Source: Calidithermus chliarophilus DSM 9957
GTDB taxonomy: Bacteria; Deinococcota; Deinococci; Deinococcales; Thermaceae
Assembly (NCBI RefSeq): GCF_000430045.1
Contig: NZ_KE387023.1
Location: 2,837,028 to 2,901,027 of the forward strand
Length of the DNA stretch: 64,000 nucleotides
Reading direction: 5' to 3'
A program made the translations under genes and the position numbers. Below the pieces are notes generated by a model that saw only the letters and a list, made by a program, of their open reading frames with translations, searched no databases and had not been told where the DNA came from. Positions 2-2,873 of this stretch are shown one piece after another (the first letter of the stretch is position 1; the number at the start of each line of letters is the position of its first letter).

Positions 2-895
2 GAGCGCCTGGGATCACTCGAGCAGGAAGCCGCCGCCCTGGGGCTCAGCGCCCTCGAGGCCGCCCTCCAGCAGGCCCGCCAGCGCGCCCGCACCCTGGCC
101 GAGGAGGAGAGCCGCCTGCTGGCCCGCACCAACGCCGTTCTGGGCGAGCTCGAGCAGGCCCGCATCAGCCTGGCCCGCCGCGAGAGCACCCAGGAGGCTC
201 TGCTGCTCGAGCTGGCCGAACTCCCTGAAGGTCCAACAGAGGAGGGCCACTCCCGCGCGCTGGCCCGCCGCCTCAGCGAGACCGAGGCCGCCCTGGAGGC
301 TCTGGGCGCCGTCAACCACCTGGCCGAGAGCGAGTACCAGGCCCTGGCCCAGGAAGCCGAGCAACTCGCCGGCGCGCTGGCCGAGGCCGAGGCAGGGGTG
401 GCGAAGCTCGAGGCCGAGCTCCGGCTGGTCGAGGGCGAGTACCGCGACCGCCTCCACGCCGCCTTCCACCGCTTCCGCGACCGCTTCCACGACTACGCCC
501 GCGCCCTGCTGGGCGCCGAGGCCCGCGTCGAGCACGACAAATCCGGCCTGCACCTCGTCCTGCAGCCCTCCGGCAAACGCACCATCGACCTGGGCCTGCT
601 CTCGATGGGCGAGCGCACCATGGGCGCGCTGGCCTTCCTCTTCGCCCTGGCGGGCACCGCCGAAGAGGGGAGGGGCCTGCCCATCGCCGTCCTCGACGAG
701 GTGGACGCCCCCCTCGACGAGGCCAACATCCTGCGCTTCACCGAGTTCCTCCAGCGCTTCAAGGGGGAGACCCAGTTCATCCTGATCACCCACCAAAAGC
801 GCACCATGGAAGCCTGCGACGCGCTGTACGGCGTCACCAGCGAGCGCGGGCTGAGCCGGGTGTACAGCATCCGCCGCGAGGACGCGCTGGCCTAG
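2..895 (+). CDS. smc: Chromosome segregation protein SMC, C-terminal part (5' truncated by window edge)
   Basis: The open frame runs from base 2, with no start in the window, to TAG at 893-895, giving 297 residues. The first ~190 residues are Glu/Ala/Leu/Arg-rich coiled coil, the returning arm of SMC. They are followed by the C-terminal half of the ABC head. The ABC signature reads LLSMGERTMGALAFLFAL and Walker B reads LPIAVLDEVDAPLDEAN, followed by the D-loop and the switch His in LITHQKRTME. SMC dimers with ScpAB organise the nucleoid and help origin segregation. The Walker A half lies upstream of the window. The signature is LSMGE rather than the usual LSGGE. Confidence 0.93.
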   Translation, partial: ERLGSLEQEAAALGLSALEAALQQARQRARTLAEEESRLLARTNAVLGELEQARISLARRESTQEALLLELAELPEGPTEEGHSRALARRLSETEAALEALGAVNHLAESEYQALAQEAEQLAGALAEAEAGVAKLEAELRLVEGEYRDRLHAAFHRFRDRFHDYARALLGAEARVEHDKSGLHLVLQPSGKRTIDLGLLSMGERTMGALAFLFALAGTAEEGRGLPIAVLDEVDAPLDEANILRFTEFLQRFKGETQFILITHQKRTMEACDALYGVTSERGLSRVYSIRREDALA

Positions 896-1281: not shown

Positions 1282-2313
1282 TCAGTCCCCCTCGTCGATG
1301 CGGTCCACGACCTCGAACAAGCCCTCGAGGTCCATCTTGGCGTAGATGGCGCTGGTGTTGAGGTTGGAGTGGCCCAACAGCCTCGCGGTGGCGTGCAGGT
1401 CGCGGCTGGCCTTGTAGAAGCGGGTCCCGGCGGTGTGGCGCAGCATGTGGGCGCCGCGGTAGCGTTCGGGGAAGCCCAGGGCCTGGTAGTGGGCGTTGAT
1501 GACCCCGCGCAGCATGCGGGCGGTCATGCCCCGGCCGCCGGCCTTGCGCCCGCCCATGTTGACGAGCAGGCGCATCTCGCCCGCCGCCGCGTAGGCCAGG
1601 CGGGTCCTGAGCCAGCGCTCGAGCTCGGCGCACAGCGAGTTGCTCAAGGGGATGGTGCGCTGCTTGGAGCCCTTGCCGCGCTTGACCTCGAGCAGCCGCT
1701 CCCGGGGGTGGACGTCGGACACCAATAAGTGAACCACTTCACTTATGCGCAGCCCGGCCTCGGCCATGAGCCGCACCGCCACCCGGTCGCGCTGCAGGGT
1801 GGGTTCGGAGGGGTCGAGGCGGGCCAGCAGTTCCTTGTAGAGGTTCAGCGGCAGGGCCGGGCGGCGCTCGTAGGCCGGGGTGGGGTCTCGAGGCGCCACC
1901 ACGCCCTGGGGCAACTGGGCGGCCCCGGCCCATTCCAGCGCCCGGTACAGCGCCCGCACGCTGGCCAGGTAGGTGGCGATGCTCGAGGGTTTGAGCGGCT
2001 GGCCCTCGAGGTGGCTGCCGCGGGTCTGCAAGTCGGCGACGTAGCGGTCGAGGTCGTCGGCCGTGGCCTTGAGCAGTTGCACCAGCGGGGCGGGCGAATC
2101 CGGCGGCCAGGCCCAGGCCAGGAAGTCGCGCACGCCGACCTCGTAGGTCTCGAGCGTCTTGGGGCTCAGCGTCGCGCGCTTGCGGCCCTTCAAGATCAGG
2201 TAGGTCTTGAGCAGCTCGAGCAAGGCCGCCTCGTCGCGTTCGTGGGCAGCCCGGACCGCCTCGAGCCTCCGCTTGCCGGGATCGTGCCAGTTGGCCAGGG
2301 AAACCAGCTCCAT
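1282..2313 (-). CDS. Tyrosine recombinase, Xer-like
   Basis: 343 residues. The N-terminal SAM-like core-binding domain spans ~25-135 and the catalytic domain ~150-335. All catalytic residues are visible: Arg189 in AGLRISEV, Lys214 or 217 in RGKGSKQR, His289 and Arg292 in HMLRHTAG, His315 in LLGHSNLN, and nucleophile Tyr324 in SAIYAKMD. Size and architecture fit XerC/XerD/XerA, which resolve chromosome dimers. There is no phage or integron context. A 28-bp dif-like palindrome lies 17 bp upstream of the ATG, inside the promoter, so this is probably the chromosomal Xer enzyme and may regulate itself. It has a leaderless-type start: TATGCT, 6 nt, ATG. An integrase of an old island is a less likely alternative. 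Confidence 0.9.
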   Translation of the reverse strand: MELVSLANWHDPGKRRLEAVRAAHERDEAALLELLKTYLILKGRKRATLSPKTLETYEVGVRDFLAWAWPPDSPAPLVQLLKATADDLDRYVADLQTRGSHLEGQPLKPSSIATYLASVRALYRALEWAGAAQLPQGVVAPRDPTPAYERRPALPLNLYKELLARLDPSEPTLQRDRVAVRLMAEAGLRISEVVHLLVSDVHPRERLLEVKRGKGSKQRTIPLSNSLCAELERWLRTRLAYAAAGEMRLLVNMGGRKAGGRGMTARMLRGVINAHYQALGFPERYRGAHMLRHTAGTRFYKASRDLHATARLLGHSNLNTSAIYAKMDLEGLFEVVDRIDEGD

Positions 2314-2319
2314 TTTCCC

Positions 2320-2325
2320 AGCATA
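2320..2325 (-). promoter_or_regulatory. -10 box of the xer-like gene (leaderless start)
   Basis: TATGCT on the minus strand lies exactly 6 nt before the ATG at 2313. The expected -35 position (about 2343-2348) falls in the middle of the dif-like palindrome, so recombinase binding there should block RNA polymerase. Confidence 0.6.
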
Positions 2326-2329
2326 CCAA

Positions 2330-2357
2330 ATTTCCCTTAATTTATCTTAGGGGAAAT
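2330..2357. other. dif-like Xer recombination site
   Basis: 28 bp with the classical 11-6-11 layout. The left arm is ATTTCCCTTAA (2330-2340), the centre TTTATC (2341-2346) and the right arm TTAGGGGAAAT (2347-2357). The right arm reverse-complemented is ATTTCCCCTAA, matching the left arm at 10 of 11 positions. The outer AAAT and inner TTA are typical of dif arms. The site is adjacent to a Xer-like gene, as in single-recombinase systems. Recombination at this site is inferred, not shown. Confidence 0.6.
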
Positions 2358-2513: not shown

Positions 2514-2873
2514 ATGACGCCTGAGGTTGCAGCTCCCATCGTTGTCGCCTCAACCGTGGTGATGGCCCTGCTCTTCGTCAGCTTCGTGGCCCCCAAGAGT
2601 GAGGAACGCAAGGCCTACGCGCGGGTCAGGGCGATCGGCCGGATGTCGCGGCTCGCCCGCAAGAACAACACCGTGCTGCGCTACCACAACGGCATGCCGT
2701 TCGTCATCACCTTCCACCGCCACGGCTACAGCTACGTCCTCGAGGGCCGCCAGGTCAGCCGCGAGCGCCTGGTGAAGGCGCTGGGCGTCGGGGCCGAGGC
2801 CGTGGTCGCCAAGGTCGAGAAGGAAGAGGCCATGGCCGCGCCCAACCCCACCTTCATCACCCTGCCCGGCTGA
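2514..2873 (+). CDS. Small membrane-anchored protein, function unknown
   Basis: 119 residues. An N-terminal transmembrane helix (~8-26, IVVASTVVMALLFVSFVA) is followed by a basic cytosolic region (~30-55) with RMSRLARKNN, then a compact alpha/beta-looking part (YHNGMPFVITFHRHGYSYVL) and a helix. I do not recognise the family. It is monocistronic, leaderless, and ends just before a strong hairpin shared with the convergent peptide-transporter operon. Confidence 0.7.
   Translation: MTPEVAAPIVVASTVVMALLFVSFVAPKSEERKAYARVRAIGRMSRLARKNNTVLRYHNGMPFVITFHRHGYSYVLEGRQVSRERLVKALGVGAEAVVAKVEKEEAMAAPNPTFITLPG

Follow-up and report, generated by a model that had tools for sequence, protein, structure and literature searches.

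What role does a palindrome with the layout of a dif site play in the promoter of a recombinase gene? The window that we analyzed, a stretch of 64,000 nucleotides from Calidithermus chliarophilus DSM 9957, raises this question at 2330-2357, where a 28-bp sequence, ATTTCCCTTAA-TTTATC-TTAGGGGAAAT, precedes an Xer-type gene (hereafter xer; Table 1). An earlier note on this DNA had described a 28-bp, dif-like palindrome of 11-6-11 symmetry, and we confirmed it at these positions, with 10 of the 11 arm positions complementary; the layout is dif-like in that the sequence is 11-6-11, A+T-rich and intergenic. The gap between the palindrome and the -10 box of the recombinase gene had been given as 5 bp and measures 4 bp. 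Relatives carry a TA-rich hexamer at the same distance as the -10 box TATGCT. A sigma-70 scan of the recombinase promoter gave no full match, so the promoter was called from the conserved -10 box only. Leaderless promoters of this type are common in this phylum. Next to xer lies a gene for a 119-aa protein without a Pfam match (2514-2873, plus strand), whose homologs of about 115 aa adjoin xer in genomes G007 and G004 too (loci L013 and L014). An SMC-like ATPase, represented in the window by its C-terminal part (2-895, plus strand), ends beside xer; an SMC-like neighbor is apparently present in G007 as well (L013).

Table 1. The recombinase gene, its promoter and the dif-like site, in coordinates of the window.
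Feature	Position	Strand	Remarks
Tyrosine recombinase gene	1282-2313	minus	343 aa, Xer-type; from ORF, Pfam, NCBIfam and alignment
-10 box TATGCT	2320-2325	minus	ATG 6 nt further on; leaderless promoter
Arm 1 of dif-like site, ATTTCCCTTAA	2330-2340		gene-proximal arm; changes in arm 2 compensate
6-bp center TTTATC	2341-2346		presumed strand-exchange region
Arm 2 of dif-like site, TTAGGGGAAAT	2347-2357		changes in arm 1 compensate

The product of xer matches the Pfam family Phage_integrase (E=3e-27) and has the full set of catalytic residues (R189, K214, H289, R292, H315 and Y324), which are invariant in an alignment with 17 relatives. NCBIfam models place it near XerC, XerD and XerS, yet under every curated cut-off: with TIGR02224 and TIGR02225 (XerC/XerD) its scores fall far below, and with the XerS model NF003462 it reaches 79.7 bits against a cut-off of 267 and so does not pass. 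The solved structure chains nearest to it are those of XerA, XerH and XerD. Following the suggestion of the earlier note to look for other Xer genes, we searched with the XerC/XerD family model NF001399, which no protein in 50 genomes exceeded and which five control genomes did, and thus found no XerC/XerD pair in the 50. Other tyrosine recombinases do exist in the genome of the window (G000). Two of them, L022 and L023, were considered as the terminus Xer and rejected, as neither has a good palindrome. L023 (G000:C3:272521) is an Xer-like protein of 255 aa that lacks most of the N-terminal domain and has a weak palindrome (8/11) upstream.

The quality of the palindrome is not by itself remarkable in this GC-rich genome. 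The window contains seven palindromes in which 10 or 11 of the 11 arm positions pair, when about two are expected under a first-order Markov model, and 1.66 Mb sampled from the chromosome contig contain about 157, mostly GC-rich and terminator-like. We therefore dropped palindrome statistics alone as evidence for dif, since the GC-rich palindromes are too numerous. An A+T content of at least 68% was found in just three of the approximately 157, and two of these three are members of the dif-like site family. Elsewhere in the genome, at G000:C3:1316162-1316189, we observed a perfect 28-bp A+T-rich palindrome, ATGATGACCATAATATTATGGTCATCAT, whose sequence is unrelated to the dif arms and which is possibly an operator. 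Given that perfect 28-bp palindromes are frequent in the genome, one could suppose that the sites bind an unrelated regulator whose regulon is scattered, or that they are chance or terminator-like sequences. This is highly improbable, as the sites are A+T-rich, occupy one conserved place across genera, and change arm type from clade to clade along with the recombinase.

That conserved place was established by comparing the promoters of related recombinases, which we found in 22 genomes from the Meiothermus/Calidithermus part of the family, plus a single Thermus. We inspected 31 distinct relative loci at the gene start (five further rows were the same loci in a second collection), and in 27 of these an 11-6-11 palindrome with at least seven arm pairs lies immediately 5' of the -10 box. 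The expectation that orthologs in the Thermaceae would carry the palindrome was thus borne out at these loci and failed at four diverged ones, in G006 and three Thermaceae MAGs; nor was a palindrome found upstream of the recombinases of Deinococcales relatives, which are about 40% identical. The arms diverge strongly among clades (ATTTCCCYTAA, ATTTCGCATAA, AAGCGCACTTA, AAGTGCGTTTA and ATTCCCGTTAA), and 90.2% of the arm pairs are complementary across relatives; at 8 of the 11 positions both arms have changed. None of 500 shuffles matched the observed pairing, compensating cells or covariation; the shuffles of arms ignore kinship, and relatedness is accounted for by a control in which the arms were slid, which left 25-46% of the pairs complementary. 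Compensating changes are what is predicted if one protein binds both arms, as the earlier note had proposed. Alternatively, dif could be served by two recombinases, one per arm, the second being for example the 255-aa protein at C3:272521, which occurs in several Meiothermus and Calidithermus-type genomes with its own weak palindrome. We regard this as quite unlikely: near-mirror arms that change together are a better fit to one protein than to two, the match of the 255-aa protein to the Xer profile does not begin until about position 98 of 300, and its gene lies at about 0.16-0.18 from the origin, off the terminus.

If the 28-mer is a dif site, it should mark the replication terminus, and this prediction of the earlier note held in the three genomes in which we located a switch in strand asymmetry. 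In G000, dnaA lies at C3:754,648 and the dif-like site at 0.677 of the way around the 3.08-Mb chromosome contig C3, which we assumed to be circular. Plain GC skew tracks gene direction in this genome and yielded no terminus; we therefore used the T/A skew at third codon positions, comparing genes of both strands over 54% of the contig. The asymmetry switches at 0.67 (bootstrap 0.64-0.72; none of 300 permutations gave an equally strong switch); the effect on individual genes is small and accounts for about 3% of the variance. In G007 the site lies at 0.632 from dnaA and the switch at 0.59-0.63, and in G009 the site is at 0.513 and the switch at 0.52-0.54; another solution, at 0.66-0.68, is almost as good. 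As the sites of G000 and G007 do not lie exactly opposite dnaA, their placement at the terminus leans on a weak asymmetry signal. The site of G031 lies at 0.524 from dnaA. All six genomes tested encode an FtsK with a gamma domain.

A comparable arrangement was found with a different enzyme. With a single exception, the Thermus genomes searched have no Meiothermus-type xer and carry a different Xer-type protein, 29% identical to the Meiothermus-type one over 237 residues. Its gene lies opposite dnaA, at 0.507 (G036), 0.476 (G068) and 0.515 (G028) from dnaA, and its promoter contains the palindrome TTCGCGAAA-GGTACA-TTTCGCGCAT, nearly identical in most of the genus. The exception, G067, is the sole Thermus searched with a Meiothermus-type xer and has neither a close match to the Thermus-type xer nor a Thermus-type site, which suggests that one Xer system was replaced by the other. 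A third example comes from a plasmid-type contig of G000, where an Xer of the Thermus type that shares 58% identity with the Thermus protein (G000:C5:4645-5475, L024) is immediately preceded by the palindrome TTTTATGGAAA-TCGGCA-TTTCCATAAAC. As the Meiothermus-type, the Thermus-type and the C5 recombinases each have a palindrome ahead of the gene, the placement of dif within the promoter recurs with at least three recombinases.

The earlier note had expected a single copy of the 28-mer. The exact sequence does occur once in the genome; sites with the same arms and other centers are present elsewhere. On the 261-kb contig C5, the site at C5:243922 has identical arms around another center, and two prophage sites on the chromosome contig (C3:1420992 and C3:1851528) have one or two arm changes and, again, other centers, so that TTTATC differs from the centers at all other sites of the genome. 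Several relatives likewise have further sites with the same arms and other centers. On large plasmid-like contigs, whose site contexts were taken from 3-kb loci, the sites are intergenic and no recombinase gene lies beside them. Sites with Meiothermus ruber-type arms were found in Meiothermus genomes only, and sites with Thermus arms almost only in Thermus, the exceptions being two hits with 2 mismatches; the three arm searches read backward as a control gave 0, 1 and 0 hits. In a viral collection three arm patterns gave 0, 0 and 1 hits, the single one probably by chance. Non-host arms, of the Calidithermus type, occur at prophage or small-contig sites of three Meiothermus genomes (G021, G023 and G029). 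The arm type thus generally matches the host, and centers are conserved within each replicon lineage: the chromosomal center GGTACA is kept in most Thermus genomes, and in this genus one non-chromosomal center repeats across several species (e.g., GAGAGC, CGTAGC). The simplest reading is that the arms would address the host recombinase and the centers would limit recombination to identical replicons. Differing centers within a genome are also what chance predicts; their conservation within replicon lineages argues for constraint. On small contigs of G022 (C2 and C5) and G018 (C1) we also observed two identical dif-like sites 9-10 kb apart, and these contigs look like small plasmids assembled as head-to-tail dimers.

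Prophage sites have a context of their own. At ten prophage loci the site ends 28-41 nt ahead of the ATG of a gene for a protein of 70-90 aa, for which no family match was found among the small genes tested, and in the loci where the next gene was read, a phage-type integrase follows directly. The integrase gene abuts a tRNA gene (Phe, Val, Met) in all three prophages in which this could be checked, which makes the tRNA gene the probable att site, with the 28-mer inside the element; as att sites, the 28-mers of these three were accordingly rejected. In elements integrated at tRNA genes, the sites are usually of the host arm type. The prophage sites could serve the dimer resolution of excised circles, or they could place the integrase promoter under the control of the host Xer. 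One form of the latter, that the host Xer represses first the gene that encodes it and, beyond that, integrase operons of foreign elements, with the site at the promoter of the small gene and the integrase keeping the integrase off, we put forward only tentatively. Two loci, L012 and L279, have the same small gene and promoter with different arm types, and the corollary that arms are swapped between versions of the element is just as doubtful.

Sites at promoters also lend themselves to another explanation, in which the palindrome is solely an operator, for the recombinase or for another regulator, and has no part in dimer resolution. The overlap with the promoter at a fixed spacing would fit such a role, as would the similar prophage sites at the promoters of integrase operons. 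We consider it unlikely, because several genomes, with one or the other of two non-orthologous recombinases, have the site at the terminus, because its arms are spaced by 6 bp as in dif, and because large plasmid-like contigs carry intergenic sites with no recombinase gene beside them. By its layout, its conservation with compensating arms, its location at the terminus and the secondary sites with mostly host-matched arms, all of which emerged from the tests described, the 28-mer very probably functions as dif in an Xer system with just one recombinase. The full proposal, in which a chromosomal dif and a single Xer provide dimer resolution and negative autoregulation and sites elsewhere have private centers, appears to us probable.

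From sequence and geometry we infer binding, recombination, repression, activation by FtsK and the role of the center as follows. In a chromosome dimer, where dif is present twice, one and the same recombinase would occupy both arms of each copy at the terminus, presumably activated by FtsK, and strand exchange within the 6-bp center would resolve the dimer. The site covers the DNA that adjoins the -10 box on its upstream side, so a recombinase bound there would be expected to keep RNA polymerase off, and this occlusion of the promoter would amount to negative autoregulation. The geometry makes it plausible that autorepression and recombination are combined at one site. As plasmid and prophage sites share the arms and have private centers, the host enzyme would be able to process each replicon and still leave it separate from the chromosome.

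Single-recombinase systems are known from other bacteria. Like the system proposed here, XerS/difSL of streptococci and lactococci consists of a single tyrosine recombinase and a site that adjoins its gene at the terminus (PMC5357621, PMC2731167); unlike difSL, which has 31 bp, an 11-bp center and asymmetric arms, the site described here has 28 bp, a 6-bp center and near-perfect symmetry. In Helicobacter and Campylobacter, XerH is likewise a single recombinase with a site, difH, that is often linked to the gene and near the terminus (PMC2731167), and a solved XerH chain is among the structures nearest to our protein; arms and spacing differ, however, and the linkage of XerH genes to the site is not universal. 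It has been suggested that the amount of XerH is possibly under tight control (PMC3325230), and in the literature searched we found no description of promoter overlap or autoregulation for XerH/difH. XerL of the Legionellales is a divergent single-recombinase system missed by homology searches, with a related dif on a Coxiella plasmid and a mobile element carrying a dif mimic (PMC9765430). The parallels to the system proposed here are a divergent single recombinase and dif-like copies on plasmids and mobile elements; unlike there, the elements described here are integrated at tRNA genes and not at dif, and in the text consulted we found no report of a dif within the xerL promoter (PMC9765430). 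XerCD/dif shares the 28-bp 11-6-11 site at the terminus and differs in having two recombinases, unlike arms and unlinked genes, whereas no protein here exceeds the XerC/XerD cut-offs; plasmids and phages borrow the host XerCD through sites with altered centers, such as cer, psi, dif1 and the attP of Vibrio phages (PMC5357621). The main text of a genome-wide dif survey does not mention Thermus or Deinococcus (PMC3025954), and in the literature searched we found no description of dif or of chromosome dimer resolution for Thermus or Meiothermus. Nor did we find, in the open-access literature, a report of a recombinase gene that has its own dif as operator.

Concrete dif sites and recombinases can now be proposed for the Thermaceae, in which two non-orthologous enzymes, 29% identical, share the placement of dif within the promoter. 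Such a placement points to dif as a possible operator for the recombinase that acts on it, which would be a simple means of keeping Xer at a steady level, and in this way the amount of enzyme and the resolution of chromosome dimers may be linked. Finally, given the mostly host-matched arms and the replicon-specific centers, it can be tested directly whether arms address the enzyme and centers the partner, and Thermus thermophilus offers a host with good genetics for doing so.
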